NCBI RefSeq assembly: GCF_037975245.1
Contig: NC_092576.1
Location: forward strand, 37,352,611 to 37,416,610
Direction: 5' to 3'
Origin: Apostichopus japonicus
Taxonomy: Eukaryota; Echinodermata; Holothuroidea; Aspidochirotida; Stichopodidae
Length of the DNA: 64,000 bases
Part shown: in pieces, positions 1,179 through 40,800 of the stretch
How the letters are laid out: every line of letters begins with the position of its first letter
Position numbering within the stretch: the first letter of the stretch is position 1
Position numbers and translations under genes: made by a program
The notes under the pieces: generated by a model
What the model saw: only the letters and a program-made list of their open reading frames with translations
Database searches by the model: none
Told to the model about the DNA's origin: nothing

Positions 1179-1970
1179 TTAAGCAGCTTCAAGAAAATGT
1201 TTAGAAGGTTGCAGAGATGAGTTAATGTAGATACCTAGGTCTCTTTCAACAGAGACCTCCTGTAACTCCACACGATTAAGATTGTATGTAAACTTTTGGT
1301 TACTACTACCAATGTGCATTACCTTGCATTTATCAATATTAAAAAGCATTTGCCACCCTAAAGACCAGGAAAAAACCTTATCCAAATCCGTTTGAAACTT
1401 CTCAGAATCGCTTTTGGAAGAAACCGCAGAATACAATTTGGTGTCATTGGCAAACTTCTTAGCTGAACACGGAATATCTCCGTCGATGTCATTTATATAG
1501 GCAACAAACAACAAGAGACCCAATACAGACCCTTGTGGAACCCCACTAGTTACATCCTGTCAAGAAGAAGCACAGCCTTTAATTACCACCCTCTGTTTCC
1601 TATTACCAAGTCAATTCTCTATCCAAGAGAGTAAATTCCCATTGACATCCATGCTCTTCAGCCAAAGTAAAAGACGCTGGTGGGGAACTTAATCAAAGGA
1701 CTTCTGGAAATCCAGGAACACAACATCTACAGACTTGTGCCTATTTAGTGAGCTTGTTACATCTTCCATAAACTCAAGGACATTAGTGAGACAAGACTTT
1801 TTTTGACAAAAAACATGTTCAGACTCTCTGATCAGAGACTGACTGCTGAAGTGACAGACCATAGACTTTTTAACAATAGACTCCATTACCTTACATACAG
1901 TACTAGTGAGACTAACGGGCCTATAATTACAGGGCTTAGACTTATCACCCTTCCCCTTCTTCATTCATAA
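1179..1970 (-). pseudogene. LINE reverse transcriptase domain, broken
   Basis: Reverse transcriptase of the same LINE. The fingers part (1964-1689) carries 'NYRPVSLTS' and ends in 'FLDFQKSFD'. After a gap and frame change, the palm part (1523-1179) carries 'LLFVAYINDI' and 'FANDTKLYS'. The last motif normally reads FADD, so one catalytic aspartate is replaced by Asn. Together with the frame breaks this means the enzyme cannot be active. Confidence 0.85.
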
Positions 1971-2880
1971 ATTTACTAAAAACCAATGAGAGTGGAACAC
2001 AGAAATGGTGTGCAAAAGACTTCAACAAATACGGATGGATTGCATCCGGTTGCATCCAGAAGCTTTAGAAACATTTAAACGAAGCAGCTCCTTTGAGACA
2101 ACCTCATCCGAAAATAAGACCGCATCCAGTTTAGGCCTATCACTGTCCCCCTAAAAATCTGGAATACTACTCATATCCTCCCCCGTAAAAACCGACAAAA
2201 AATAGTTGTTCAAAAGATCTCCAAGATCCTGACTATCAGTAACTATATTATCAGCCTGTGGTGCCCTAAGAGAAACAATTGCATCTTTAACTTTCTGCTT
2301 TGACCTGACATAAGAAAAGAAGGAGACTGGGTTATCCTTAAATTTTACGGCAATGCTATTTTCGAAATTCAAGTTTGCATCAGAGACTAAGCATTCTACC
2401 TTCAGCTGATGAATTTTAAACTTGACGGAAAAGAGTTTCAGATTTAGTCCTCCTAAACAACTTCCACATTCTACGTTTTTGCCTAATTGCACATCTAACT
2501 TTCTTATTCATCCAGTGAGGAATACTGTTTTTACGACGACGATTCTTCCACGGAACATGACTTTCCATAATGACCTTTAATTATTCAGCTAAACAAATTC
2601 AAGACTGAGAAGCACTCATATCTCTAAACAAATTAATCCAATCTGTACCCTTTAGTGAAGTTTCAATTGCCTCTGTATCTGATCTCGCAAAATCAGGGAC
2701 TTTTTCCTAGCTAACAGAATTTACGACTTTGCAAACAACATCAAACGCTATTATATCATGATCACTAGTTCCTAGTTTTCCTAGACCCGTCAAATCAACA
2801 ACATTACTTGGATCAGAACTCAAAACAAGATCTAGGATGTTATCCCCCCTAGTAGGGAAAGTAACATGTTTATGTAAAAA

Positions 2881-3450
2881 TCAATCTTGCACAACATCTA
2901 GAAAGTAACTACCCTTACTACTACTGGAACCATCTATCCAATTAATGTCAGGAAAATTAAAGTCGCCCATAATAACAACATCACCTTTAGCAGCCTTTCT
3001 AATTGTATCCAACGGCAAGACATCATTATCATCGCTGATGTTAGGAGAACGGTAAACAACACCAACATTGATAGCATCACTGGACCTCTTGAAGTTGTCA
3101 GTGGACAACTCGTACCAGACAGAATTGACAAAAGACCCTTGCAACTGAGATTTCTCTACACTTACAATGTCATCCCTAACATACAGTAAAAATCCCCCAC
3201 CAATCCCATTATGAGTATCCCTTCTGTCCTGAAGATACACAACATACCCCGGGTGAGAAACCTCAGCACTATCAATGTCCTCCCTTAACCAAGATTCGGT
3301 GATACCAAACACTTCAGGTTTCAGATCCTCAAGAAGCACAGGAAATTCAGCAAAATTTTACGAATACTTCTAGCATTGGTAAAGACAATATTCAGCTTAT
3401 CCCTGAAACTATGTACCTTAGAATGCCTCTTAAAGTTAGAACTATGACTA
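2881..3450 (-). pseudogene. LINE endonuclease domain, broken
   Basis: This is the apurinic/apyrimidinic endonuclease-like domain that nicks target DNA for a LINE. Visible signatures are 'NIVFTNARSIR' at the start, 'ITESWL', a glycine-rich 'GIGGG' and 'MGDFNFPDINW', the last holding the catalytic D-N pair typical of this family. A frame break near 3340-3360 separates the first motif from the rest. It continues (minus, toward 2520) into 'RGDNILDLVLSSDP', the usual region just after the endonuclease core. Confidence 0.8.
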
Positions 3451-3638: not shown

Positions 3639-4535
<897 letters not shown>

Positions 4536-4545
4536 AAAGGTTCGG
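4536..4545. repeat. Target-site duplication, left copy (RTE insertion)
   Basis: AAAGGTTCGG directly before the truncated RTE element. An identical copy follows it at 5665-5674. Confidence 0.85.
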
Positions 4546-5664
4546 TAATTACACAAGAGTTCAATATACCTGTATGCGTCGCTTTCGTAGACTATGAGAA
4601 AGCTTTCGATTCCGTTGAAACCTGGGCAGTTCTCGAGGCACTGAAAGAGCAAGACATCAACCCTAACTACATCAAAGTAATCAAAGACATCTATAGTGGC
4701 AGCACAACTACTGTTAAGTTACACAAAGAAAGCCACAAAATACCAATAAGGAAAGGAGTGAGGCAGGGAGATACCATATCTCCAAAGCTCTTTGCTGCAT
4801 GCTTAGAACACATCTTCAAAGACATCAATTGGGAAGATAAAGGTATCAATGTGAATGGGGAGAAGTTCAACCACCTCCGTTTTGCTGATGATATAGTCAT
4901 CATAGCTAACAACTTCAACGAAATGGAGAGCATGCTACAGGACTTGGACATAGCAAGCAGGAAAAGAGGACTGAAAATGAATATGAAGAAGACCAAAGTA
5001 ATGGCAGACCAATCAGTTAAACACAAACCAATCATCATTAATGGAACAGAATTGGAACATGTATCTGAATACATTTACCTGGGACAAAGGTTCATTCTCA
5101 CCGAAAGGAATCAAGATAATGAAATAAGGAGAAGGATCAAAGCAGAGTGGCAAGCATTTGGCAGATACAGCCACATCATGAAGGGCAATCTACCATTATG
5201 CTTAAAAAGGAAAGTGTATGACCAATGCATTCTCCCATCAATGACATATGCATCAGAAACATGGACACTAACAATTAAAATGAAAAGAAAGTTAGCAGCC
5301 GCACAACATAACATGGAGAGGAGTATGCTTAACATAACATACAAAGATCACAAAACCAATAAGTGGATAAGGGAACAGACAAAGGTACAGGATATAATGG
5401 AAGTAATCAAACATCGTAAATGGACATGGGCCGGCCATGTCACTAGAAGGGGAGATGGAAGATGGAGCACGCTAACCACTGTATGGAAACGCTTGACGGG
5501 AAAAGGAACAGAGGCAGGCAAAGGAAGAGATGGAGAGATGAAATACAGAAATTCTGGAATGAAACCAATTGGTACACACATGCAGGGGAGAGAGAGAGTT
5601 GGAGATATCATGCTGAGGCCTTCATCCAGCAGTGGATCGACAACGGCTGAAGAAGAAGAAGAAG
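4546..5664 (+). mobile_element. 5'-truncated RTE-type LINE with target-site duplication
   Basis: The element starts abruptly inside the reverse transcriptase and runs to a short GAA-rich 3' tail (about 5648-5664), a 3' end style usual for RTE elements. It is flanked by direct 10-bp copies of AAAGGTTCGG (4536-4545 and 5665-5674), as expected from target-primed reverse transcription. Only about 1.1 kb of a normally 3-kb element is present. The single frame change and the perfect duplication suggest a fairly young insertion. Confidence 0.88.
4548..5650 (+). pseudogene. RTE-clade reverse transcriptase, 5'-truncated, one frameshift
   Basis: Partial LINE reverse transcriptase. In frame from 4548 it reads 'VAFVDYEKAFDSVE' (first catalytic Asp region), 'KGVRQGDTISPKLF', 'LRFADDIVII' (intact FADD catalytic motif), 'NMKKTKVM' and 'YLGQRF', then the C-terminal 'WTWAGHVTRR', a hallmark of RTE-like elements. 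Near 5455-5500 the frame must shift by one to continue as 'RGRQRKRWRDEIQKFW' and 'AFIQQWIDNG', the usual RTE C-terminus, which ends at 5650. In the original frame translation would run on to about 5684 as an unrelated tail. The fingers and endonuclease are missing. Confidence 0.9.
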
Positions 5665-5674
5665 AAAGGTTCGG
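5665..5674. repeat. Target-site duplication, right copy (RTE insertion)
   Basis: AAAGGTTCGG directly after the GAA-rich tail, identical to 4536-4545. Confidence 0.85.
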
Positions 5675-7139
5675 ATGCCACTAACTATAATTTAGTCGGT
5701 ACATTCCCAATTTACTTCCATAACCATCTTGTATTCATTTACACACCACAACGTTTAAATGTATCCTTAAAGCTTTTGGCGAGCAATGTTAAAACTTTAC
5801 CATTATCATTGTTCAACTGGATAATATTGACACGGAATAGAAATGTATGTAATAAAGAATAGGATATGAGAATTAAAAGAAAGAAGAACATAAATTGGGT
5901 GGTCCTTAAAATCATTTCTGGAAACATATTTACGGCGATCTAACGCATTATATCAGAGTTACTCATTTTTTTTTTATAAGTACGAGTAATCATAATTCGT
6001 CATAAAGTTACATTAGTTTGTGTAGTGCTCAATAGTATTGATAATAGCGATAGCAAGTTTGCCAATATATCCCTAACCCACCATTCAAATGTCGGTTGTT
6101 GCTTGGTTATTCTGACGACGCGACGATCAATATAAGAGAATTTACCTAGTCATATAATATATCCTATGAAATCTAGGTAGCGTTATTGCACTCTAAACTT
6201 GTACAAATCTCTGATATCAGAGTAATATTAGTTTAAGTACATACTTAATCTTCTATTTATTCAATCAAATACTGATACTGGTTGAGTGCTAACTTTTATC
6301 ACAAGTGTCGATATGGTCCTAGAATAGGTTGGCCGGATTGAGATAATATTTCCCATCGGCTTTCCCTTTACTTGTCATCATTTTTGAACTAACAAAATAT
6401 TACAATGAAGTGTTTTAGAGTGACAAGCATATACTCCATACTCATTATTATTTATATTAATTGAACTCGTCCACTTGTTACTCGTAATGTACTAACTAAA
6501 CGGAATAGTGGCATTCGTGTACGGATGCTTGTACCAGACTTAGTGATCTTAATCACGCCTAGAACCCAATAATCGTACTAATAATAAACTATATTAATTG
6601 ATTGTAGTAGGTACAATATGGAACACAAATGTTGGCATGGTTTAAACCTCTAATCTTTCACAGACTCTCCAAATAGGTGAGACAGATGAAGGGCGCCCTT
6701 ATATTTAATTTATATAACTTGTTTTCATTTAACACCGTTTGAAAAGGATACTTGTGTGCTGTGACCATTAAATAATCAACAACATTCCGATATGCCACAC
6801 AGGGTAATACATCTGCCGTCTCTTTGAATGAGCTAGGTCACAAGAAGGTCATATTACATAATGTTCTTATCCAGAGATTGAGTGTAAGTTTAACGTTTCA
6901 CATTAATTTGTCAGATCGCATAAGACCTGATCAAATCAGTCGTTTGTTACCTAAATGTAAAATTTAAGAGAGTAATGTGAAATAAATGTTTAATTTTATA
7001 CAAATAAACATTATTTAATTTATTTTGTTTCACATATTAAATTACCTTTTCTTTTTTATACCTAATTCAACGAATTTAAGTTGGAGCATGTAGATGCAAG
7101 TAGCCAATTTTGATTTACCCAAAATCCACAAGAGTGCCG
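5675..7139. other. No gene recognised
   Basis: AT-rich sequence with only short open frames (for example 5739-5927 minus). I see no exon with paired splice sites and no repeat structure. Confidence 0.4.
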
Positions 7140-18480: not shown

Positions 18481-18578
18481 CTGGAGGCCGTTAAATAAAC
18501 TGTGACATTAAAACAATATATCGGAGATTTGGTAATTGAAATTATTTCGAAACCCAGCATTTATGACGAGAAACTTAC

Positions 18579-19630
18579 CATATTTGAAAAATTCCAAACT
18601 TAACCGTTGCTCTAAAAATGGAAAGCTGCTTTGACAAGAGAGACTTCCACGCATTGTCGTTATCCAAAGTGTGAAATCTATCCTTGTTACAAAAGTATTA
18701 TTTATCAAACGTGAAGAGGTAACAGTGACATTATCTGGTTTGCCATTTCCAAGTCCGTTTAAGGTAAAAGAAAGGTTAACAGCAGGTCTGCTACCAACAG
18801 CATAACATGAAACAGGCACTGATTTCTTGTCAGGAATGTAGATTGCTCTTTCACCGTCGTAGTAAGAGTGATTACCGACATCCATGAATATAGTAGGAGG
18901 AACTTGAGAATAAATAAGGTAGAAATGAAAATCATTTACAAGGTAATGCCGCCTTTGGAAAAAATATACTCCACTTAGTCGTTGCTTATTCTGTAAAATT
19001 TAACAATGAACTTTTCGTTACAATTAATTAGAACGTATTTTTCCCCTAATTCGCACAATGATATTATATAGCATTTATGTTTATTGCAAGGTTTATACGT
19101 TTCACAACTTGGTGTATTTGGTAACGATAAGTAAGGGTATGCATACTAAAGTGTTGGTCAAGATTGCAGGATGTAAATAATTAAGAATAATACGTTATTT
19201 TGATTAAAGTCTTTGATAACAAACTGATGCTTTTGTTTAGGAAATTAAACATGTTATTACATTCATTTAAACAAATTAAGGGTCACAAACCTTCAACGTC
19301 TACAAAATAGGTGGACAAAGTTTGATAATTCCTGACGCAGTTGTATTTTCCGATATGTATTAAAGATACTGGGTTGATGTACAATGAGCTATTGCGCAGT
19401 AAGAACAGGTTAGCTGAAAATTCATCACGCACTAAAAATCCTTCAGTGAATAGCAGCGTTTCTTGAAATTTCCATTCAATTTTATCTTGTTCCATGGCTT
19501 GGCATCCTTCAAGGAGAAACGATTTATTATAAGAAAGTGAAATCATATTAACATTGTTCGCAGATAAACCACACAGGAATGTTACACCGAGAGAAATCCA
19601 AACCTGAAAAAGCTTACAAACTACTTCCAT
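18579..19630 (-). CDS. Divergent two-Ig gene, partial or secreted
   Basis: Two minus-strand exons. Exon 1 (19630-19291) encodes a signal peptide (MEVVCKLFQVWISLGVTFLC) and a first Ig-like domain with 'GCQAM', 'IEWKF' and 'GKYNCV', giving both core Cys and the Trp. Exon 2 (18902-18579) follows acceptor 'TTCTCAAG' and encodes a second Ig-like domain ('SCYAVGSRPAVN', 'GSLSCQ'), in which the core Trp is replaced by Phe ('LSFTL'). Both exons end in phase 1. The donors are GTTTGT and GTAAGT. There are several N-glycosylation sites (NHS, NLS, NVT, NNT). No membrane exon was found below 18508. The gene is head to head with the Ig-TM-NACHT gene. It could be a truncated receptor or a soluble Ig protein. 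Confidence 0.72.
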
Positions 19631-20336
19631 CTTTTTTTTGTTTATTTGCTTATCAAATATTAACATGAATCAGATATCTATAGAAATAAAGCGAAAAGAT
19701 CTTCCTGCGAGTTAAAGAGTAATGAGTTAAAATGGAACGACATTCACTGCTATCAAACTGCATAATTATACTACGGATGCTTGTAAGTCACGCAATAACG
19801 CCACAACAACTTCGAGCAGAGTGTAACAAAATTTATTCGGAAAATTGAAGTGAGTGTTTGTCACAAGGCTTAAAATGTTTTGCAACAACATAGTTCGATT
19901 AACCATAATCCATTGTTTTACCATCTTTTTAAAATAGATCCAACGTTCTAAGGTTCCGTTATATCAAACAAACACGAATATAATGGTACCACAGCGTTGA
20001 AGTTGTGTTGAAATCAAAAACAAAAACAGTATATATCATTTTTCTTGGTTAGGCAGTTATTTTATTAAAACGATGTACTACAGGAAAAACTAAGTATAGC
20101 TTAATGTTTAAAATATTTGCCTTAGAGGCGTTTGTCAACCTTTGCTGTTATAAATCATGCTGTGAACGAGTGTTATAATAGGTATACTTATAGTTTTTGT
20201 TTCTTTTAAGATTGATAAACCATCCCCTGAAAGTGCTGTCCATTGGTAAGCTCTCTCTGATTATAGTTTAGCTTTTAGTACTATTCAACATAACCTTTTG
20301 ATCTATTTCCATTAGGTAACTCGGTCTGCTAACAAA
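19631..20336. promoter_or_regulatory. Shared intergenic region of two divergent Ig genes
   Basis: About 700 bp separate the two start codons (minus at 19630, plus at 20337), so both promoters must lie here unless there are distant 5' exons. No clear TATA box was fixed. A possible short 5'-UTR intron of the plus gene runs from the donor at 20246 (GTAAGC) to the acceptor before 20315 (CCATTAG). Confidence 0.5.
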
Positions 20337-20397
20337 ATGGGTTTGTTTTGTCTACGGATTTTCATTGCTGCTGCGGTGTTACATTCAGCACTTTGGG
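20337..20397 (+). CDS. Exon 1: signal peptide
   Basis: ATG at 20337 starts MGLFCLRIFIAAAVLHSALW, a typical signal peptide with a short hydrophobic core. The donor GTGAGT at 20398 leaves phase 1. A phase 1 signal exon followed by phase 1-1 Ig exons is the standard plan of Ig-family receptors. Confidence 0.85.
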
Positions 20398-23300
20398 GTG
20401 AGTTGCTATGATTTGAAGATTCAATGTAGATATACACATTGATTTAATAGTACTTGATTTGGTACACTGTATTGCCATTCGCAACGTTCTAACACGTGAT
20501 ATTATACGTTGTTCGTGACACTAATGTTCTATTTACTCCCTTCAAGTCATTGAGTCTACTAATATAAACCATTTTATTGGTAGTTTTCTTCTCCTCTTTA
20601 CATTTCTTAGTAGATTTAGTACTCATTCAAATAAATTTGAGCCTTGCTTTTATATCTTGTGTCCATTCACAGAAATATCAGTGGGCAATACAGCATGCTC
20701 CCCTGTCCAGTATCTTGAAATCGGTACCCGTGGTATCATTCAGTGTGCGTTTACTGAAAGTTTGCTGGCAATTACTTGGTACGATGTAGACAAAGGAGAT
20801 CCGATATTGTTTTACAAAGATGGTGTAACAAGTGGACAAGGTTACGAGTCAGAAGAATTTGATATCTATCCTAACGGTTCACTAGTTATCAGAAATGTTA
20901 GCATCAATCACGAATCTGACTTCAGGGTCACAAAGATAATTTCAGGAACTATTCCGACTGTTTCACATCTCATTACGTTGCACACGACGGGTATGTATTT
21001 CAAGCTTGTAATATAAAAGTAAATAACGTAATTATAGCCTAATCAGAGAAATTCAGTCGAAATTTGGAGACAAGTCGCCCGCTGAGTGAAGGAAGTACCA
21101 ATATCATCTATCATATTATACTGATTGATTAATCTGTCACTTTCCCGTACGTTATTCTATGATATTTTTTTTTATTATAAATAATTCATATCAAGTTGTA
21201 TCTTGTGGATTTTCTTTCGAGTGTCTTGTAAATAATACTGAGAAAGTATGATTGAAATACGTCTGTGCTTTGATTGTTATATCCTATGTATTGGATGTCA
21301 ACAGATTTCTTATCCATTTCTCGGTGAATTCTGACTAATAGAGAGATAATTATGATATATGAACATGTACTTTTTAGATAGCTTGATAACACTAAATAAA
21401 ATAAAAAAACAATGGTTCGACTACAAATACGGACACTATAATTTGAAATAAAAAGTTCATCATGATAAATAGGTGTTATTTATCTCGATTATGACATATA
21501 AAACCTAGCACTAGTGAGACTCAACGCAAAAACTGAAAGGACCTTTATACGTTTACACACAGAAAAGAAGACGAAGGGGAAAGTTTCTGGATTCATTTGG
21601 CATGGTTATACGAATAAAGCATTGCAAAAACATACTATGGAACAGTCATATGAAACTAATAAAACTCATTTGCACGTTTTAATAGTTCCTGCCACTGTCT
21701 ACAAACCTTTGCAGAAAATTCATTGCTTCTCTTTAATCCAGGTTTTAAGCTAAACATCTCATTATTTGACCACGTCAACTAACAGGGATCATAGCATGTG
21801 GTACTTACCAGCAGTAGGAATTTTTAAATGTTCAATAATTTTCTAAATTTGAAGGAACCATTAAATGACTATTCATTCATACTTAGTAAAGATTCCTAAA
21901 CCCTATTGGTCCATTCAGGTCAGCTGACCGTGGTTAATCCTGTGAGTAACGCACGGTAAAATTACGGGGCATCACTTTAATAAATCTTTGGTTATATGTA
22001 ACCAAAAATGTTTTGTTTTATGATTTTTTCCCCACACAAATGGTAGTGTATGAATGAATAACCCCGTATTCAACATATGTGTAATGTAATCAAGGCAACA
22101 TACATATTTAACAGTTATTTTAATACATCAATTGAAAGATCACCGTTTGACTTATTATCTACAGTTAAGCCAGTTATGAGCAATCCTATCATAAAGGAAT
22201 GTGAACAGATGGACGGTAATATTTGTTTTAAGTCGGTGACAGGACCACTTGAGTTGAACTGCTTCGTGAGTGCGAGCCGTCCTGCCGTCAATTTGAGATG
22301 GATAGAAAGGACGGCTGAACGAGATAACACCTTGAATTCAAGATATATCAATTCAACATATGATAATGTGACTTACACATCCTGGGCTTCAACAAAGTTT
22401 AATTTTCAGACAACATCTTTCTTGAGCCTTATCGTATGTGAAGCGTCCAGCATTCCACTGGATTTGATAAAGGGAGAAAATATGATTTTGGTTGAGAATC
22501 AGCTTGCTCACAAGTTAGAGGTAGCTCCCATCTTGCACTTCGTCAAACTGAATTTTCCAATGAAGCTGCCATGTGTGAATCCAAGATTAAATTTAATTGT
22601 TTGGAGACGATGTCGTGGTGAAGAGAATATTACATTTGAAATAGAGTATATTAGTATTTTCCTATCGAACGATATGGCTGGATTTCAATACAGGGAGTAC
22701 CAACTTGATGATGCTGGAAGCCTATCGTTACAAAGCGCTTTAGTTGAACACGAAGGACGTTACACCTGTATTTATGATGATGGTATCGATGGAGGTGCTC
22801 TATTGTACGATGTGTTTGTTATCGGTAAGGTTTCTTATATATTCCACTTGCAATGTCCATGGAAATTTCCACTTGCCCTAATATCTAACTGTAATGCTTA
22901 ATGAAAACGGCTACGAGAAGAGGAGCAGGGCCTGTGGCAAAGGTCAATTATTTTTTCTGGAAAATATGTGATAAAGAATTTACTTTCATACTACCATGAA
23001 AGTACCATGAACTAAGTATGTATAATTCAAAGCGGGGACCTGTTGAAATAAGTGGACCCGGGACCCAGCCTGACTCTCGCCCCTGAATGTAAATATATAC
23101 ACCTTATCATTGAAATATACATGTAAATATATGCAATCGATATAAGTTGAGGAGAACTCCATCAGTGTGGCAATTTCTGTCGAGAAAAACGAAGTTGGCT
23201 TCGATTTGTCCTAAAAATCCTTTAGAAGGAACGAACCATACTTCGAAGACTGTTACGAACGTTACTACTTGGGTCAAAATAAGTTTTTATTACTATTTCT

Positions 23301-26300
23301 TTTGTTTCATTGCAGTGGATCCAGTACCTGCGTTTCCAGTGATCGAAGGATGTAATCACCAGCAGTACTGCGTCTTGGAAAAACAAATTCAAGACGTTTT
23401 AACGTGCACAGTATCAGGAATAAGACCAAAGGTGGCACTCGAATGGAAGGTGTTTAGACAGGATAATACTATTGGTTTTTCAGAACAAACAGTAACGGTT
23501 ACACAAAGAGATAACCGATATGATATTATTTTGAAAGCAAAGCTTGGAATTCCTTCCAAACCGGAAAACAAAATCACTGTAGAATGCGTCGCTGTTGGGG
23601 AAAACGCAGAACACTTCGATCTTTCTACAAAGATTGATGTCATCTTTACAAATGGCAAGTATTTTAATAGATTCAGACCTAACTATTATCGAAAGTTTTA
23701 AATAGTTGATGATCATTTAGTGTAATATTACATGATATGTAATCACTGAAAGCAAATTCGACAACATAACTTTGTAGTTCATAGTGTATAGAAATTAAAA
23801 TTAAATTTGCAATAAAGACTATACAATAACAAAACGATAAATTTGCTGTAACATACAAAAAAATGAAAAAAATAAAATCGCTATATATTGGTAACTTTCA
23901 AAAAATGAACAATAAATTTGATACATATATAGTGGTAACTTCATAACTATTAGAGATATGTTACACATCCAGGCAATATACATTTTGGCATATATATTTG
24001 CAAACAAGGTTATATTTGTTTAATTGTGACTATAAAACGGGTACATGTTTATTCACATGTATTGTATTACAATTCTTCCATTCTAGTACATCCGACGGAA
24101 GAAACATCGGTCAGAATATTCTTAGTACCGGTCGTTGTTGTAGTGGTTGCTGTTGTTACGGTGATTCTCGTAGCTCTGTGCATAATCATGCAAAAAGGTA
24201 TATAAATATATATAATTCGTATTAATATTTTAATGTCATGATTCTCAACTCAAGTATACAGTAATATATGCGTTACATAAATGTGTGTTCCACCAACAGT
24301 TTTCCACCATAAACACTTCATAACATCTTCATCAAGTTATTTAATCGATCTTTAAGCTATTTCTGTAGCTCTTAGTTGATTTTTTTTTGTCTCGTTTCTT
24401 TTAAGAACTTGCATTGGATATAAGTCATACCAGGGAGGTAAAACTGTTTTTACCTCCACTGTCATACGGCATCAACAATAAAATCAATCTGCTAATGATT
24501 GATTTTGCTAAGTCTTGAAAAATTGATAGTATACCACTAGGAATTCTATTTCTTATATCAAATGTTTCAAAGTTACGTCAGTCAAATGATATCGCCTACA
24601 TTAACATCGTCACAGAAAAGTATCGAATTGCGCAACTGTAGATTTGTACTAGAATGGACAACGGTAATGGTGTATGTATGCCCTTTTAAACAATTTTGCA
24701 GAGCTAATAGTTAAAATAACAAAATATAATGTAGCTTCCTTTCACTTTCAGTAAGAAAACGAAATATGAAAAAGAAGCTGCATACCGGCAATCTAGAAGA
24801 GGTAAATATATATCTGCGTACGGTGTTTAGTAGTAATGTATGGACATTAATTTGAGCGGTTGTAGTAATTAATTGGATACTTTGGAGGTTCTGACCTTTT
24901 ACACGACATAATTTATTGTTTTGAAAGCAGAAATATAAATATTATGAGAGACTTAATTACGCAAGATATGTGGTACTAGTATATTAAGTAGTTATCAAAT
25001 TGTGAATATTTTAAAATAATGTTCATGTAATCGCTTCCAAGATTTCAAATGTCTACAATTCAGAATACAACATCCATACACTTGATACTAACGCATATGC
25101 ACATCTTTGTTCTTTTACAGACATTGCCAATGATGAAAAAAAAAGAGGTGAGGCAGCTATTATTCCTTAACCATTGACAAATGATACTTTAAAATTTGAA
25201 TACACGCACACTGCCAAGGTTAGCTTCAAACCCTGTCAAACCAATTTACATTAATCACATATTTGCTTGACGTTACCTACTTTATATAATATAAATATCA
25301 TAATCGTTAGCTTTAAAACAATTAGTTAAAATTTCAGTCTCCATTTATGTCATATTGATACAAATACTACCACACCGTTTGGAAAAAAACAGTTAATGTT
25401 ATCATGATTCTTACATTATTTAACGGGTTTTAATTTATTACAGAGTTTTCAGAGAAAGAGACTCTTTTCATCGGACAGATAAAATCCAAATACGAACTGC
25501 TTTATGATTCAGTTCAACCAATACCATACATCAAAGACAGGATGTATTGTGTGGACAAGGTATTTGTTAATGGCGGTGTTGAATTTTTTGCTAACATGCC
25601 CGAAGGTGGAGGACAATCGAGGTGGGAAAGCTTAGGAACTTATCAAGATATACTCAGTGAGAAATGTCTAAGCTCTAAACGACAAATTCTTGAAGGCGAA
25701 CCTGGATATGGAAAATCAACTTTAACCTTACAACTGCTTTATGACTGGTGCCAGTCTGTCCACACTTCACCACTAATAAACTTCGACGTTGTGATTTATC
25801 TTCGATTAAGACAGCTAGGTGGAGTTAACTCTATATACAGTGCAATTAGACAATTCATCCTTCCGAAAGATTCAAACATTAATGATGAGGATGTAAAAGA
25901 GATGCTTCATAGCATGGATTCCGTGCTGGTTTTGTTAGATGGTTTTGATGAGTATCCGGATCAAGACAGTGCAGAAACAGACATCTTTCATATTTTGAAA
26001 AAGAACATGCTGCAGGGAATTAAAGTAGTTCTAACAACAAGAGTATCGTGCTTACCGAAAGATTTTGCACCACGCACTGAACGTGTTCGGCTTCAAGGGT
26101 TTGATGAGGCAGCCCACAGAACCTACATACGTAAAGCTGTTGTTGGAGAAGATGATAAAGCAGTTGAAAATTTAATGCGAAAACTACAGAAAAATCCACT
26201 TCTTGATGATCTGTGTCAAGTTCCATTATTTTTTGTCATGTTTGCTCACATAACGTACGATAATGAAAAGATGATAACATTCAATTCAGTAACTAGTTTT

Positions 26301-29300
26301 TTTCGCTATATGATATCTTGCTTCCATAGTCATATGAGAATTAAAATGAAAGACGAAAACGTACAGAAATTTGAACTGTTAGAAAACGACCATAAGGCTC
26401 TTGACAAAATTGCTTTTGAAGCGTTAAGTAGAAAAAAACAGAAAATAGTTTGGGACAAAGAAAAACTTCGTAATCAACTAGGTTGTGAATTTTACGATCG
26501 GTATTTTCGCATTGGCATCCTTGTTGAAGAAGAAGTTCTAGATATAGCGGATGAAGTAAGTGACGAAAGTCATATTCAGTACAAAAAGGAGGTGAGATTT
26601 TATCACAAACTCTTCTGCGAATGGTATGCTGCATATTATGTTGCAGAATGTTTGTCTGCTACCAGCACTGAAAATGTACACAGTTTTCTGGACAAATTAG
26701 ATCCATTTGAATTACAATATGTATATCGATTTGTGTGTGGTCTTGACAAGATTGCGGCCGAAAAAGTTATTCAGTACCTGCAAAGTAAAGACGATGGGAA
26801 AAAGTTCGCAGTGTTGTGCATGCTTGAACAAGAAGAGAAAACTGAAAACTTTATAAAGAGAGTATCTGATTTGGTGTCTTCTGGTGTTACATCCATTGGT
26901 AGTGATGAGAGTAAACTGCTGCAGAGGTCTACGCTACAAATCCTGGGTGTTGCATCGAAACACAAGGTACATTTTCAAATCAATAAATGTTCGTCTTGTC
27001 ACCAACATTACCTAAATGGGAACAGTATGAAAATGTTAGAATGATAACATGATCAAATGACATATTTAATTAACTTCTACCCGGAAACCTCACTTTGACG
27101 ATCTTTAATTTGCATGATACAAAATGTATTTCAATATTTTTAATTATTGTATTGCATCAAACATAAAGTAATATATATGATATATATTATAAAAACAAGA
27201 GAACAGAAGTTGCAGGATATTATGCGAATGTCTGCCATTCAAAATTAATTTACGTCTGTAAATGAGCATGTCTCTATTGATTAAGCTATTACATATTAGC
27301 TTAGAAATATATACTTTAAGGAATTAACCTCGCACAATCAATGACCACCAAATAATGTTCAGCTCACTTCTATGAGAGTGGGATCCTAAACTTTTGCGAC
27401 ATTCAAGCGAACATGCAGTTTGTGGTCGTTGGTGATACACATACAAACTTTATTTATTTGAAATCACGTTTAGATACCCGTGTCCTGTCTGGTACTAGAC
27501 AAGTCTTTTGCCAATGCAGACCAAAATGAAATCACGCTGAAATCTGGGCTGCGTGTGCCTATCATGCTACTCCTGGAGAAGCTAGAAATCAGAATGGAGA
27601 AGGGAAGAGAGGTTACGCAAGAAGAACTGTTAAGTGTGTGGAGATATGTACAGCAGTGTCAGAAGTTGAAGCGATTGTCGTAAGTATTATACAAATATTG
27701 CATAAATATACATAAAAAGGCCTGTAAGACATTTTGTCAAAGGCAGGGAAAAGTTCAATAAATACAATGTTAAGTGGGATACAAACTTTAAACACATGTG
27801 CACTAAGGGTTTTATAGTAGATCATGATGCTGTCATTCCAGCTTTTATACATAAATAACATTAAAATAGCTTCGTAAGTATTACACAAACATAATTAAGC
27901 CTGTAAGACATTTGGAATCAACTTCAGAGGCAGGAAAAAGTTCAATAATTCCAAAGTTAAATGTGATATAAACATTAAACACATGTGTACATACGATTTT
28001 ATAGTACATCCTGATGCTGTCAAGTTAAATTTTGAACATGAAATACAATTTAAAAAAATATAATCTGCTAGGAAAACTAGAACTTTCAGCGCCAGATTTC
28101 TATGCATACATATTGATGTTTGGTGCATATAGAATTGTATCCATATATACTTACAAACTGAATATATGGTTGTAAAGTAAAAACTTCAGTTAGACATATG
28201 TATAAGCAGTTGAGTATAAACTTGGTATATTAACTAACACTTTCAGAAACCAAGAAATACGTTTGGAGTCCACGAAATATTTTCGGAGAAAATTCATGTA
28301 CTTCACAAACTTCATTTTGCAATATCTTTGTATTAATATTTTATTGCAACTCGTGTGAATAAGTTACTGATTTAAATAAAACATTGCATGGATACCCATG
28401 TCCCATTATTGTTTTTTAACATAAAATTAACATATGTTTACGTCTGTCTATAGCATTTAGTCAATGCTATTGCATGTACTAATTTTTCTTATACTTAAGA
28501 AGTACCGTGCAGTCAAAATAACATACGTAAGTCCCACAAATGAAGATATGTGTCTACATGTTAACTTTTAAACTGTTATATTTTATTCACAGATTTATTG
28601 ACTGTTTCTTGCCTGCGTCTATTCCCGTTGAACAAATTTCGAGTGTTATTAAATCAAGACACCTTAAAGGTAAGACAGATTCAATCAACGGATGAACACA
28701 TCGCAGTCTCTATGTTGTATTTGTGTTCGGTTAACCTTTAACCGAACATTCATGAGCTGCTACTACGATGATTCGAAACCAACATATCTACTTATAGATG
28801 CTTACTCAATAGTACACATAATATTTGAAATAACCAATAAATGTCTAACTTTTGTTTTGCCTAGTCTTTTGGAAGCCCCTTGATTATGAATTTGCCTTAG
28901 AGATTGAAAGTGGCAAATGGAAAATAAATTCTGAAGGGACGTCAAAGTTGTCGGTAAGTACTTTGGTAGCATATGTCGTAATTCATGTTCAAGTTTTCAG
29001 TTTAAATATAATTGTGTTCCACGGTTCACTTTGGATATGCCTCCTCCATGTATTCATCTAAGTTTCGTTAAATGTATTCTCATTAATCTCATCTAAGGAA
29101 ATTAAATTGCTATAGTGCTGAAATGATCACCCCTGTAACATGATACTACAAGACTGGAAAATAAGTAGCAAGAATAAGTACCACGTCAGTTGTTTCCGTA
29201 AATGTTATTGAAATTACTATTTTATATCATTCATCATCGGAATTCTTGCTTCCATTTGTTGTTGTGGCCGCTGAAAATGTTGCATTTTTGTTTGTTCCGA

Positions 29301-31531
29301 CGCTTAAGGGTTCAATGAATCTACTTACATTAACAACGTATACATACTCGTGTATTTATCGTTCACATGTTTTTTTTTTTATCTAGTTCGTTGGTATCCA
29401 TGTCTCGTAATATATTAATAACATATGTACAAAGCAGGTATATTCATTTACTGCTTGACTTTATAAAGTAACTTCATTTTGTTATCAGACTGAGGACCGT
29501 CAGAGCTTACATAAACTGATGTCAAATACAGTAACGCTAAGCAAAGATGACAGTAAACATTTCCAAGGATATATGATAGAGCTCTTACACAATGCATCTT
29601 GTCACAAAGTACGTATCATCCTAATATGTATTTTAATTTCTTCACTATAAAATATAATAGAACCTGTACTATTAACATGTTAATATGCCAAACCTTGTCA
29701 TGTGTCTAGCAACACGCATACCTACCCAAATTTCATAGTAAATCGTATAGGTCAGAAATTGCTTGAAGCTTTTCAAACAGATTAAGCCAGCTAATTAAGG
29801 TTGTTTATACACTGTAATTATTCAATTATTTTTGTTCTATAGTAGATTAATATTGCACTTTGTTAAAAAAAAAAAAAAAAAAAAACATAGTATGGAATAT
29901 CTTACAGTAACGTAGAGTATTTAGGAATGTAACAAAAAAAGTAAAATTCACACCGTAGCTTCTTATTTCCTTTCTGTAGATTCCTATATACTGTGTGAAT
30001 TTGGCAAACGCTTTTAAAGAGCTCGATGTAGATGGGAATATTATCCTCTGCTCTGGTCTCTCTCTACCAATCCTCACATCACTAGAGATACTGGATATAC
30101 AAACAGAGAAAGGCAGGAAAATAGGTCAAAACGAAGTGAATGCAACGTTAGAGTACATACAGTATTGCCCAAGATTCAGGCAGTTGATGTAAGACCATTA
30201 CTAAGTTCATGAGAGTAACAGACATGTAAACTTTGTCATCTAAAATCAGCAATATTTGAACATTGTTGTGATTATTTTAAATATAAGCGTCTCTGGAATC
30301 GTGGACTTAAAGAGTAAGCTATCTTACCATAACTCAAAACAATCACATTGATATGTGGAAGCGATACAGGCAAACAAATATTTAACAAACATTGCCTTAC
30401 TGTACAGAAACACGCGATTAGAGCTATTCTGCGTCCTCTGTATAACTCAATTTCTTGTTTTATTTATTGGTTTCTGAAACAGGTTTGATGGCTGCTTGCT
30501 GCCGAGTTCTGTCTCTTTGGGCCCTTCTTTGTCAAAATTGGAATCAAAGAATATTAACGGTATAGTACAGTATAGTCCTCAGTATTCTCTTTCGTTCTGA
30601 ACAGCATACTCGGAGATATATTACATTAATCAGTGTCTTTGTTAGTCCGGTACCTTACCTGTTTTCAGCTATTCTTGGACGTATTCGTAGAGATTTAGAA
30701 CTTATTGAAATGATTATTTTTTTCTTTCTTTACACCTAGTTTTCTGCTTTCCCGACGGGCGAGAAGGGCGCCACTACAAGCTACATTTCCAGTCTGGTCA
30801 TTGGCTGCTGGATCCTGGAACTTCTTCCGTTTTTCCGGTAATTAAATTACTGTTTTCCTTATTTGCGTACCCTCCACATGATTAGTATTGCGGTAATTAC
30901 TGTGGAATTCGGTTCTATTAAAGTCCTGTTCAATATCCACTGCATTGTGTTGTATGTGGAAAATGACACCATTGTGCCGTTGTGGCAATTCTGTGATACT
31001 CCGACAGAACGCCATACCTGAAACAGCGCGACTTTATAATTGATACTGGAATTTGTTTTTTAGAGCGTTTGATGTAAGATATTGTATACTTGGTTTCTGC
31101 GTCCTCTTATAAGGGTCACACAAAGCTTCTTTTGATACAACGAAACATAGCTTCAACCAATATCCGCGGTCACTAAAGTCACATATTGAGATTGATCATC
31201 AAGTTGAACAATCAAGTTGAACAATTAGTGAACGCATTTGATCATCAAGTTAAACAATAAACGCACTTAAAACAAAACTATAACGCGGCTGTCCGAGTCA
31301 AATGATAAAACGAGCTAAAAGCTGTAAAATGTTTCTGTTTTATGAATCTCTTTAATGTCGTAGAGGTTATGCTAAATTTACAATCATTCATTTATCGTCG
31401 CATTCTGTTGATACATTCTGTTACTATTTGATAATTATAATTATATAATCGGTGGTTTTGAATTCCTGATAATTATGACAAATAATGTGTTTTTTCTTTC
31501 CTTACAGTTAAAGCCATTGGAGAGGTATTGA
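20337..31531 (+). CDS. Ig-TM-NACHT receptor gene with A-B-C-D module tail
   Basis: Joined exons: 20337-20397, 20673-20990, 22165-22824, 23316-23654, 24087-24197, 25121-25147, 25444-26966, 27474-27679, 28593-28669, 28865-28953, 29489-29608, 29980-30188, 30483-30559, 30740-30837, 31508-31531. They total 3939 nt, exactly 1313 codons including the stop, and every junction keeps phase. Predicted order: signal peptide (1-20), Ig1 (21-126), Ig2 and Ig3 (127-346), Ig4 (347-459), one membrane helix (about 470-493), NACHT with Walker A at 590-598 and Walker B at 669-675, then repeat modules to 1312. It should be a type I plasma-membrane protein with ligand binding outside and NTP-dependent assembly inside (inference from the domain families). 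A 50-nt exon (24752-24801) must be skipped for this frame. It could instead be two adjacent genes, but phase continuity argues against that. Confidence 0.75.
20673..20990 (+). CDS. Exon 2: Ig-like domain 1 (V-like)
   Basis: Acceptor 'CCATTCACAG' and donor GTATGT frame 318 nt, phase 1-1. It encodes a V-like fold with 'IIQCAF' (first core Cys), 'ITWYD' (core Trp) and 'GSLVIRNVSINHESDF'. Where the second core Cys is expected (after 'ESDF') the sequence reads RVTKI, so the usual disulfide is missing. There is an N-glycosylation site at NVS. Confidence 0.82.
22165..22824 (+). CDS. Exon 3: Ig-like domains 2 and 3 in one exon
   Basis: Acceptor 'ATTATCTACAG', donor GTAAGG, 660 nt, phase 1-1. The first half holds an Ig domain with 'LNCFVSASRPAVNLRW' and 'LIVCEA'. 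The second half holds another with 'LPCVN', 'IVWRR' and 'EGRYTCIYDD'. Both have core Cys-Trp-Cys. Other Ig domains here have one exon each, so an intron between domains 2 and 3 was probably lost. N-glycosylation sites include NST, NVT and NIT. Confidence 0.85.
23316..23654 (+). CDS. Exon 4: Ig-like domain 4, with a GC donor
   Basis: Acceptor 'TTCATTGCAG', 339 nt, phase 1-1. The Ig domain shows 'LTCTVSGIRPKVALEW' and 'ITVECVAVG'. To keep phase 1, the exon must end at 23654 before GCAAGT, a GC-AG intron. The nearby GT at 23659 would give phase 2 and destroy the membrane helix frame in the next exon. Confidence 0.8.
24087..24197 (+). CDS. Exon 5: transmembrane helix
   Basis: Acceptor 'CCATTCTAG', donor GTATAT, 111 nt, phase 1-1. 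A short polar stalk ('HPTEETSVR') is followed by about 24 hydrophobic residues starting 'IFLVPVVVVVVAVVTVI' and ending 'ALCIIM', then 'QK'. This is a single-pass type I membrane span placed between the Ig domains and the NACHT exon. Confidence 0.87.
24752..24801 (+). CDS. Exon 6: optional 50-nt cassette exon that breaks the NACHT frame
   Basis: Acceptor 'TTCACTTTCAG' and donor GTAAAT frame 50 nt. In the phase left by exon 5 it reads VRKRNMKKKLHTGNLEE, a basic juxtamembrane tail. The following exons then read TLPMMKKKE and hit a stop about 13 codons into 25444. In another frame it reads KKTKYEKEAAYRQSRR, which would join exon 7 well, but that needs entry phase 2. Options: an alternative exon giving a short receptor, a missing micro-exon, or a 1-2 nt sequence error. 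Confidence 0.55.
25121..25147 (+). CDS. Exon 7: 27-nt juxtamembrane micro-exon
   Basis: Acceptor 'TTCTTTTACAG' and donor GTGAGG frame 27 nt. Joined directly to exon 5 (phase 1) it reads DIANDEKKR and exits in phase 1, matching the NACHT exon. It forms a charged linker between membrane and NACHT. Confidence 0.6.
25444..26966 (+). CDS. Exon 8: NACHT ATPase and first A module
   Basis: One 1523-nt exon (phase 1 in, phase 0 out, acceptor 'TTTATTACAG', donor GTACAT). It starts with a conserved block ending 'QPIPYIKDRMYCVDKVFV'. Walker A GEPGYGKST is at 25695-25721, Walker B LLDGFDE at 25932-25952, a sensor-like 'KVVLTTR' follows, and 'RFYHKLFCEWYAAYYVAECL' is the winged-helix region typical of NLR-type STAND ATPases. 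The end ('KLLQRSTLQILGVASKHK') is the first A module. All nucleotide-binding motifs are intact. STAND proteins oligomerise on ligand-triggered NTP exchange (family knowledge). The ATG at 25542 is not taken as the start, because the paralogue conserves the sequence upstream of it. Confidence 0.93.
27474..27679 (+). CDS. Exon 9: module B, copy 1
   Basis: Acceptor 'CACGTTTAG' and donor GTAAGT frame 206 nt, phase 0-2. It starts IPVS, then 'NEITLKSGLRVP', 'LEKLEIRMEKGREV' and ends 'QKLKRLS'. It aligns with the other B exons, which are 209-212 nt. Confidence 0.82.
27678..28035. repeat. Tandem duplication inside intron 9, including the splice donor
   Basis: Two neighbouring copies (about 27678-27846 and 27873-28035) share 'TCGTAAGTATTA', 'GCCTGTAAGACATTT', 'AAAAGTTCAATAA', 'TTAAACACATGTG' and 'CTGATGCTGTCA'-like blocks. 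The duplicate therefore carries a second copy of the exon 9 donor without its exon. Confidence 0.85.
28593..28669 (+). CDS. Exon 10: module C, copy 1
   Basis: Acceptor 'TTATTCACAG' and donor GTAAGA frame 77 nt, phase 2-1. It encodes FIDCFLPASIPVEQ and on to 'KSRHLK'. The F-x-x-C-x-L-P-x-S pattern is shared with the other C exons, all exactly 77 nt. Confidence 0.8.
28865..28953 (+). CDS. Exon 11: module D, copy 1
   Basis: Acceptor 'TTTTGCCTAG' and donor GTAAGT frame 89 nt, phase 1-0. It encodes 'VFWKPLDYEFALEIESGKW' and a short tail. The L-x-[EQ]-S-G-x-W motif is the module D signature. Confidence 0.8.
29489..29608 (+). CDS. Exon 12: module A, copy 2
   Basis: Acceptor 'TTGTTATCAG' and donor GTACGT frame 120 nt, phase 0-0, 40 residues. 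The end 'IELLHNASCHK' matches the end of the NACHT exon ('LQILGVASKHK') and the gene 2 A exon ('IELLLKASSHN'). Predicted to be helical. Confidence 0.8.
29980..30188 (+). CDS. Exon 13: module B, copy 2
   Basis: Acceptor 'CTTTCTGTAG' and donor GTAAGA frame 209 nt, phase 0-2. It reads 'IPIYCVNLANAFKELDVDG', then 'IILCSGLSLPILTSLEIL', 'TEKGRKIG' and 'RFRQLM'. The 'LP-x-x-TSLE-x-L' stretch faintly recalls the start of a leucine-rich repeat, but no full LRR consensus is present. Confidence 0.85.
30483..30559 (+). CDS. Exon 14: module C, copy 2
   Basis: Acceptor 'TTTCTGAAACAG' and donor GTATAG frame 77 nt, phase 2-1. It reads 'FDGCLLPSSVSLGPS' and on, with the C-x-LP-x-S motif. Confidence 0.8.
30740..30837 (+). 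CDS. Exon 15: module D, copy 2
   Basis: Acceptor 'TTACACCTAG' and donor GTAATT frame 98 nt, phase 1-0. It reads 'VFCFPDGREGRHYKLHFQSG' followed by HW, the module D signature. It is 9 nt longer than copy 1. Confidence 0.78.
31508..31531 (+). CDS. Exon 16: last coding exon with stop
   Basis: Acceptor 'TTTCCTTACAG' is followed in phase 0 by LKPLERY and a TGA. A third module A would be expected here, so this short exon closes the protein after two full modules. Confidence 0.6.
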   Translation, partial: LKPLERY

Positions 31532-37848: not shown

Positions 37849-40800
37849 GTAAGTTACACATTCACTGTATTATCTTATTCTTTAGCATGCACATTACACA
37901 ACGGGGCAAAACAACATGGATGGAAAAGTTCAACTTCTCTAACAAACACCTCATTCTGTAGTACCAATATAATTACAATCATCGATGCTCTAAAGTTGCG
38001 ACAAATTCAATGTGACTTTAAGGACACAGACCTAATCATCATGTTGGTTTATATGTCAGGCGTAACACCACCAAATATATCATTTTAGAACATATCCCAA
38101 GTAAAAGTAGTGTTTGGGAGCTGTCACTTTGAAAATGTGTCATTTCAATGCCACTAGGATCTGTAGCCGATTATTTGTCTATAAAAAACATTAATATTGT
38201 GATATCTCTCAAATGGATTAAATGTTTCTTGATAAGTGCTCTTGACAACTGTCTATTTCACATAGACTAATGGTATTGTCGTCACCCCCCCCCCCTTGTT
38301 TACATTTTGGTATGATTACATATACTGGAAACAATTACATCTTTTGTAAGTGACATCAATGAAGTCGTTTTAAGAAAATTTAAAATAATCTCTTGATTGC
38401 TAAATACGTGTCATTATAAAAAAAAAATCAAAATAAAACATTCACGCTTCATTGAGTTATGACAACTACTCAATAAAGCCAAACATGTGATTTGTCGGTA
38501 TGTTGTAACAGACCGTATCTTCGGTCCATGAAAACTGTATTTGTATCACACAAGTATTTTATTAAAGAGTATGTTATAAGCTGACCTAAAGAGTTATTAC
38601 ATAACAGCTCCCTGCCTACAGTAAAACAACGAATGAAACGTAACTTATCTGATATTGAAATGTACTGAGATGTTAGTGAAAGAAATAACATCCGGCACAG
38701 AGATGACCTATCTCACACAGGAACCTAAATAGTGCATTAACTATCGCTACTTGATGTTATGAACAGTTGAATGTACTGACAGTTTCAATTATCCTATGAG
38801 AGTGACCTAATAGATTGTTAAAATTGAGTAACTTCTAGGTGCACTATAAGTATAGTACACAATATTTTATAGATTTTGCTGCTAATTTGGTGTTTATTTA
38901 GAACCCCAAAAATATACATATATACTAGGAATACCTTCAGACGTTTCTCAACATTACATTTACGTGTTTGTTCTAATAACATTAATTATTTAATATTTTC
39001 TTACCAGAAAAGAAGTGCATACTTCTAGATTCTCTGAAGACTGTTTACAAAAAGCAGTATGACGCATTACAACCAATTCCCTACATTAAGGACAGACTCT
39101 ATTGTATAGATAAGGTTTTTGTTGAGGGAGGTATTGAACACTTCCTAGAAACCCAGTCCGAAAACTCACAGAAAGAACGTTTGAGCTCGTATAAAAACAT
39201 TTTCACTGATTCAAGTTCAAGGTCATATACTAGGCGTATTGTGGTGGGTGAAGCTGGATACGGTAAATCAACTCTGACCCTCCAGCTAGCGTATGACTGG
39301 TGTAATGGTGTCAAGGATTCTCCTGTCTCTGCAGCGGATGTATTAATTCTTCTGAAACTTAGGCAGTTGGGTAATGTAAGATCAATCTATAAAGCTATCA
39401 AAGTGATGTTATTGCCGAGTGAGTTTCGCTTGAATTCCAAAGACATTAAAGATATTCTTCAACGATGCACTACAGTAAAACTAATTCTGGACGGCTTTGA
39501 CGAATATCCTAATAGAGAAAAAAGTAATCGAAGTGATATCTGGCGAATCATTAAATCCAAATTGTTCGAAACATTTGATGTAACTTTGACAACTAGGCTA
39601 ATACCAATAGACTTCAAAAGTTCATCACCGAAACGACTGGAATTAATTGGGTTTGACGAAACAGCGCGTGACCATTATATTCGCAAGGCTATAACAGGTG
39701 AAAATAACGAACATGATGTTGATAAAATCAAGCGAGGATTACGAGAAAACCCAATCCTTGATGACATTTGTCAAGTACCTCTGTTCTTCGTTACGTTCGC
39801 TCACATGACTCATGAACGAGACGATTTTCGAAAATTTAAGTCGGTAACAGACTTTTTTGTATACATGCTAAAATGTTTCCATAGTCACACTAGAAACAAG
39901 GCATCTGACCAAAATGTAGTTAGCTACTATGTCGAATATGAAATTAATCACGTTGAACTGGATAAAATAGCATTTGAGGGTCTGAACAGAGAAAACCAGC
40001 AGATTACATGGAATAAAAAACAGCTCCGTCAGAGACTTGGTAAACAGTTTTATGATCTGTATATCCGTGTGGGTATTTTAGTAGAGGAGGAAATACTTCA
40101 AGATTCAAACAGAGAAACTTCTGGAGGGGACATCAAGACCAATACTGAAGTAAGATTCTACCATAAAATATTCTGTGAATGGTATGCGTCGTTTAGGTTG
40201 GCGATTGTCACTGCAAATGCAAGAAATGCGTTTGAACTAGAACAGATTCTAGGTAAGCTGGATCCATTTGACCTCCAGTATGTCTTTCGTTTCGCATGTG
40301 GACTAAGTCGTACATCTGCGAGTAAAATTATTGAACATTTGAAGAAGAAAACAGATTGTGATAAGTTTGCAATCCTCTGCATCTTGGAACAAACTGGAGA
40401 CATTGAGGGGATCAGGAAGACTGTTACAGAGCTCTGTTCTAAAGAGGTTATCATCGACAAAGATGACAACAAGTTACTACAGAGGTCTACCGTACAGCTG
40501 CTACAGGTAGCATCAAGTCATGACGTAAGTATGATCAAGGATAATAAATCAAATCGTTAATGTGATATTATTTGTGAATATATTTTTCAATCATTGTCCA
40601 ACTTTCTGATGCAATTCATTTCTGGGAGACCAAGTGAAAACCAGCCACACAAACCTCCACTCTGTGCTATATAGTTAATAACACCTTCCTAATTTATGCA
40701 TAATACCGCTGAAATGTATGTAATAAAGTATACCAATACATATAATGCAGATTGTTTAAACTTCGTCATTTCTGCACGTGGCATATTACAGTATACCGAA

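Follow-up and report, generated by a model that had tools for sequence, protein, structure and literature searches.

Can a single gene of the sea cucumber Apostichopus japonicus carry an immunoglobulin (Ig) ectodomain, a membrane helix and an intracellular NACHT ATPase? The question is raised by a gene at positions 20337-31531 (+) of a stretch of 64,000 nucleotides (nt) of contig NC_092576.1 (37,352,611-37,416,610), referred to here as the window. The gene is probably a paralogue of AjNLRC4 from the same species and would work by the receptor mechanism described below. In this reading it encodes a signal peptide followed by four Ig-like domains, a single membrane helix with a short juxtamembrane segment, then a NACHT ATPase and a tail of two repeats. 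Its sequence shows the domain order, the exon plan shared by the family, intact ATP-switch motifs and near-identity to other copies. A 2021 study presented AjNLRC4 as a receptor in the cell membrane that binds bacteria and polysaccharides through its extracellular Ig part and promotes actin-dependent phagocytosis (PMC8699970). The initial annotation of the locus had regarded this combination as new, which is not borne out with AjNLRC4 already on record; the window gene appears to be a further member, possibly damaged, of an already known receptor kind.

Domain order and exon plan of the window gene

Fifteen exons with AG acceptors and GT donors, plus one GC donor, had been proposed for the gene, and both the splice sites and their join into exactly 1313 codons, stop included, were reproduced exactly. 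The initial annotation held that every phase matches; this is true of the fifteen exons as joined, but it was reached by omitting an exon at 24752-24801 that is conserved in paralogues. That the fifteen exons make up the transcript was thus not confirmed, and this model would be one of two open readings, differing from the splice pattern of the family.

Exon 1 (20337-20397) holds the ATG start codon and a signal peptide called by eye (MGLFCLRIFIAAAVLHSALW), and ends at a GT donor in phase 1. It is followed by four phase 1-1 exons, namely exon 2 (20673-20990) with the first Ig-like domain, exon 3 (22165-22824) with the second and third, exon 4 (23316-23654) with the fourth, and exon 5 (24087-24197) with the membrane-spanning helix. 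An exon homologous to exon 2 is present in 8 of the 20 paralogous loci fetched and in AjNLRC4, and the GC donor, which follows exon 4, is found too in paralogues L035 and L036. The NACHT ATPase and a subsequent winged-helix/helical region share one exon (25444-26966), entered in phase 1. Seven tail exons (27474-27679, 28593-28669, 28865-28953, 29489-29608, 29980-30188, 30483-30559 and 30740-30837) code for two divergent repeats, and in the splice model the last coding exon (31508-31531) contains the stop codon; all lie on the plus strand. The order and phases from exon 1 up to the NACHT exon match those of the AjNLRC4 type.

In a Pfam search with the whole protein the Ig-like domains stayed under the cut-offs; exon 2 alone gave V-set at only E=0.11, and exon 4 C1-set right at the cut-off (E=4.4e-4). 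A profile of exon 3, which has conserved Cys and Trp columns, combines the window with 17 paralogues (18 sequences) and matches solved Ig proteins, contactins and other Ig chains, the best being contactin-1 (E=1.6e-12 over 54 positions). The strongest hydrophobic stretch of the protein, residues 475-493 (19 residues, mean hydropathy 3.6), is the membrane helix, and NACHT is found at residues 587-737 (Pfam, E=1.5e-18). The NACHT exon has intact GEPGYGKST, LLDGFDE, TTR, CQVPL and RFYHKLFCEW motifs, which we take to be Walker A, Walker B and sensor elements of a nucleotide switch. A profile of this exon, likewise of 18 sequences, hits the structures of NLRC4 and NLRP3 (best E=1.1e-15), and the match includes the CQxPL segment. 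The tail consists of two copies of a unit of ~125 residues, 35% identical over 127 aligned columns, and matched no Pfam family. Leucine-rich repeats were considered for these units and rejected, as Pfam found no LRR in the whole protein or in the tail; an LRR-like spacing, seen by eye only, is unproven. Neither a CARD nor a pyrin, death or BIR domain was found by Pfam in the protein. The NACHT, membrane helix and repeated tail claimed for the gene are upheld, while its Ig domains are sub-threshold in Pfam and backed by the paralogue profile.

Comparison with paralogue L036 gave ratios of nonsynonymous to synonymous substitution rates (dN/dS) of 0.30 for exon 2, 0.23 for exon 3, 0.60 for exon 4 and 0.23 for the NACHT exon; such low values suggest that both the Ig and the NACHT part are coding. 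Paralogue pairs gave no support for strong diversifying selection on the Ig part. In 11 overlapping pairs, dN/dS of exon 4 was above that of the NACHT exon 8 times, tied with it once and fell below it twice; in 10 usable pairs, that of exon 3 was above it 6 times, tied once and fell below it 3 times. The pairs share members, counts are small and values above 1 rest on few changes.

Paralogues across the genome

The order Ig, membrane helix, NACHT recurs in the genome. Among the 86 genome matches listed for the window NACHT exon, 31 are preceded on their own strand by an Ig match no more than 16 kb away, a limit chosen by us, and none has one downstream on that strand or upstream in antisense; genome-wide totals are lower bounds, two of the 86 entries are pieces of one place and some hold stops. 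For another NACHT list, of at least 106 matches, an upstream Ig was present in 30 of 55 entries tested. Twenty regions around NACHT matches on the chromosome of the window (C16) were examined for the exon plan. Seventeen intervals from Ig exon 4 to the NACHT exon were compared (the window and 16 paralogues), leaving out L021, L031 and L035, with one exon absent in the fetched stretch, and L029, with a weak exon-4 match. An in-phase membrane exon was found in 16 of these 17 intervals but in none of 340 dinucleotide shuffles and in none of the 17 intervals read in antisense, with a hydropathy threshold (2.9) and length range set after candidates had been viewed. The sole interval to fail is that of AjNLRC4, whose membrane exon falls below the threshold. 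It is very unlikely that Ig and NACHT exons are two chance neighbours. The domain order and single-gene reading of the initial annotation thus hold for the family, in which order and strand are conserved with a membrane exon in between.

On chromosome C12 a locus near 25.0 Mb (L042) has Ig and then NACHT exons in the same order, and a locus at 33.5 Mb (L041) has NACHT with none of the family Ig exons in the 5.7 kb upstream examined. Locus L040 on C7 has broken Ig remnants upstream of NACHT. Between ~3 and 12 Mb on C7, 16 of the 20 listed C7 NACHT matches have open frames of 510-512 residues; with the broken Ig exon of L040, the one examined, this would fit the amplification of a single damaged unit. 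A near-identical copy of the window gene lies at C16 37.50-37.51 Mb, ~131 kb away (exon 3 98%, NACHT exon 97% identical), and may be a recent duplication or a retained haplotype. Locus L033 (reverse-complemented) has two consecutive candidate membrane exons, at 5785-5880 and 5959-6069, which could be alternatives.

AjNLRC4 itself (accession MN607598, as cited in PMC11932488) was placed at C16:4493458-4503408 (L038) by four of seven printed oligonucleotides tried. EX-F and EX-R match there with 1 mismatch each and qF and qR exactly; IN-F, IN-R and the small interfering RNA (siRNA) have no match in L038 within 3 mismatches, the best matches of the siRNA target having 4 mismatches in L038 and 6 in L039. 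The published layout is Ig-like 31-132, Ig 251-353, helices at 483-503 and 776-795, and an intracellular NACHT at 600-757, in a numbering traced by its authors to transcriptome work (PMC8699970). When L038 is spliced with both its small juxtamembrane exons, the membrane helix falls at 482-502, LRTD at 177-180, as published (PMC11932488), and the hydrophobic NACHT segment at 776-795, identical to the published position (PMC8699970). Dropping one small exon breaks the frame and dropping both shifts the NACHT numbers by 27 residues. The second small exon had been chosen by its PM motif (ranked second) before the numbering was compared, although a linker of about this length had been anticipated. 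The published numbering supports the prediction of one spliced product with Ig, membrane helix and NACHT in the family. Relatives of the same order are found both among the paralogues and in AjNLRC4, whose reported landmarks are shared.

Several other features lie in the window. A divergently oriented Ig-like gene on the minus strand (18508-19669) stands head to head with the main gene, with a signal-peptide-like start and weak Ig match at 19283-19669 and a second Ig match, of E=6.8e-05 against the profile of exon 3, at 18508-18999; no NACHT exon was found on the minus strand of the window. Another NACHT exon lies at 38986-40560 (+) and shares 48-49% identity with that of the main gene; in the 7.4 kb upstream of it the family profiles recognised no Ig exon. 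A tail-like exon is present at 52754-52963, and retrotransposon frames resembling reverse transcriptase were seen by eye at 1179-3357 (-), 4497-5684 (+) and 49906-51306 (+).

Juxtamembrane exons and rival explanations

When the window was aligned with L036, the stretch 24752-24801 (+) proved to be conserved and to have splice sites; it is an extra juxtamembrane exon of 50 nt and phase 1-0 that was not in the first model. The same exon was aligned in eleven C16 paralogues (50 nt; 44 nt in two). A scan of 18 loci found closely similar peptides in 13, the window included, more divergent candidates in four (L034, L035, L037 and AjNLRC4) and no convincing counterpart in L019. Its peptide (RKRNMKKKLHTGNLEE) opens with a basic cluster, RKRNMKKK, right after the helix, as expected just inside the membrane. 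A second small exon, of 22 to 34 nt, completes the frame in 16 paralogues; the scan took only frame-completing lengths, so that the lengths, but not the PM motif, are partly by construction. This motif is present in 14 of the 16 (not in L022 and L023). In the window this exon (25121-25147, +) encodes a PMM motif when read in the family phase and measures 27 nt; the near copies L045 and L036 have 28 nt, and because of this difference splicing of the family type ends the frame at codon 535, shortly after the NACHT exon begins. Both small exons are thus present but shift the frame, which is open only if 24752-24801, or both, are skipped. A full-length receptor from the window copy is doubtful because its frame breaks under family splicing; this failure lowers the claim that the copy is an intact member, not its apparent descent from the family.

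In the mechanism modelled on AjNLRC4, the Ig part would face outside and bind microbial surfaces, binding would cluster the receptor so that its inner part signals, and the complex with the microbe would be taken up by actin-driven phagocytosis. By analogy with the NLR fold, NACHT would be held ADP-bound and aid oligomerisation once receptors cluster. For the window copy the last steps would hinge on transcripts that skip 24752-24801.

The window copy may be newly broken, may depend on exon skipping or may carry an assembly error. That it is a recently broken duplicate, whose normal transcripts stop before NACHT and give at most a membrane-anchored Ig protein, is a serious contender, if somewhat short of an even chance: the 27-nt exon, the stop under family splicing and the near copy ~131 kb away speak for it, while the other exons, the seven of the tail among them, are open, dN/dS is low, skipping of 24752-24801 keeps the frame and a 9-base homopolymer may hide a consensus error. 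The shift might also be put to use, alternative splicing or early polyadenylation giving several products: the complete receptor from transcripts that skip the small exon, and a short form with Ig and membrane helix but without NACHT. The membrane exon indeed reads straight into a stop (MQKGI, then stop) with AATAAA at 24477, two skip forms are open and L033 has its two candidate membrane exons; the hexamer is common in A+T-rich DNA, however, and we regard such alternative products as unlikely. A wrong join of two adjacent genes, one for Ig and membrane helix and one for a cytosolic NACHT protein, is hardly credible, even though the join is known here from genome sequence alone. It was rejected on the order and strand kept in the 31 of 86 listed matches, with none downstream or upstream in antisense, on the membrane exon in 16 of 17 intervals and on the AjNLRC4 numbering, which spans the join; moreover, no ATG-initiated open reading frame of more than 60 residues starts between 24198 and 25540.

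A reversed topology, with NACHT outside and Ig inside, has been reported for another A. japonicus protein, AjNLR-new (PMC13133943). For the window gene it seems very improbable, although the Ig exons of AjNLRC4 alone show no enrichment of N-glycosylation motifs (4 seen, 4.6 expected; NACHT exon 4 against 2.6). The signal-peptide-like exon 1 and the basic RKRNMKKK directly after the helix favour a C-terminus inside, and summed over loci the motifs are up in Ig exons (91 seen, 66 expected) and down in NACHT exons (25 against 33), a modest contrast among related sequences. As far as its description goes, the first of the two helices predicted for AjNLR-new could be its signal peptide. It is also improbable, to a lesser degree, that the receptors recognise self or neighbouring cells and that their diversity serves allorecognition or adhesion. 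Many diverged copies exist and the exon-3 profile is similar to contactins and further Ig chains of cell adhesion, but Ig folds generally match adhesion proteins and antibodies, which makes this likeness weak, and for the Ig part of AjNLRC4 binding of bacteria and polysaccharides has been reported (PMC8699970).

Besides the stop at codon 535, several points weigh against the AjNLRC4-like receptor preferred here. For the window copy it is read from the genome alone. Phase agreement among paralogues is partly by construction, because their exon boundaries were placed at those AG/GT sites, no more than 18 nt away, that gave the phase expected. LRTD, the proposed caspase-1 binding motif, stands at the aligned position in one of 18 exon-3 sequences, that of AjNLRC4 itself, and the window gene has ERTA there. 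Finally, the published step from NACHT to actin stands on less firm ground than it seems, because the primer sequences given for the intracellular construct belong to a different gene: IN-F and IN-R (PMC8699970, Table 1) have exact matches at C14:1474164 and C14:1477174, ~3 kb apart. These are their only genome matches within 2 mismatches. The locus (L043/L044) encodes a ZZ zinc finger (Pfam, E=2.3e-13) and presumably is a gene resembling p62/SQSTM1. The mismatch may be only a misprint.

Comparison with AjNLRC4 and other known systems

The second helix reported for AjNLRC4 (776-795) coincides with the conserved CQxPLFF segment of the NACHT exon, which aligns with soluble NLRC4 and an NLRP chain. 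The highest hydropathy over 20 residues in this exon is 1.76 in AjNLRC4, at that segment, and at most 1.42 in 15 other sequences. For AjNLRC4 a single pass through the membrane is the simpler reading. Given this overlap and the primer mismatch, its reported topology and NACHT-actin binding merit a recheck.

Surface NLRs upset the usual view of NLRs as cytosolic sensors, a point already made with AjNLRC4; the window adds scale and anatomy, with many clustered copies of one exon plan, so that the diversity of sea-cucumber recognition becomes testable by long-read RNA and population sequencing. Among the open-licence PMC papers listed, no description of family size or exon plan was seen. New here are the family size, the exon plan and the evidence that the second reported helix of AjNLRC4 belongs to the NACHT fold. 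As a tentative and rather bold extension, A. japonicus might possess a chromosome-scale, germline-diversified repertoire of surface NLRs (Ig exons precede NACHT at a minimum of 31 loci, some of which are not intact), each Ig ectodomain having its own ATPase. This would be an adaptor-free family resembling antigen receptors, in which phase-shifting small exons choose between full-length and NACHT-less forms.

With vertebrate NLRC4 and NLRP3 the window gene shares a NACHT and a helical region (profile E down to 1.1e-15). The vertebrate proteins are cytosolic, with CARD or pyrin and LRR, and are not known to have an Ig domain or a membrane helix. Of the features of a canonical NLR the window gene thus has the NACHT STAND ATPase, but not the C-terminal LRR, the N-terminal effector domain or the cytosolic location. 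NLRs with an Ig V-set domain have been mentioned for the sea cucumber Chiridota heheva, likewise combining NACHT and Ig, in a passage that mentions no membrane helix or exon plan (PMC8913654). AjNLR-new (PIK48001.1), reported in 2026 and known here by description only, is an A. japonicus protein that also unites the three parts, Ig, membrane helix and NACHT, but has 1197 residues and is reported in the reverse orientation to that proposed for the window gene (PMC13133943). In 2025 AjNLRC4 was proposed to form an inflammasome-like complex together with a caspase-1-like protein (PMC11932488). AjNLRC4 differs from the window gene in sequence, with a protein identity of 27-49% at exon level, and in its small exons, which keep the frame, whereas those of the window do not under family splicing; no relative of the window tail was found in the ~7 kb beyond the AjNLRC4 NACHT exon (E up to 0.01). 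The two genes nevertheless agree in species, chromosome (C16), domain order, exon plan and similar residue numbers for helix and NACHT, and the window gene displays the AjNLRC4 layout of a signal peptide (by eye), an Ig ectodomain, a single membrane helix and a C-terminal NACHT.

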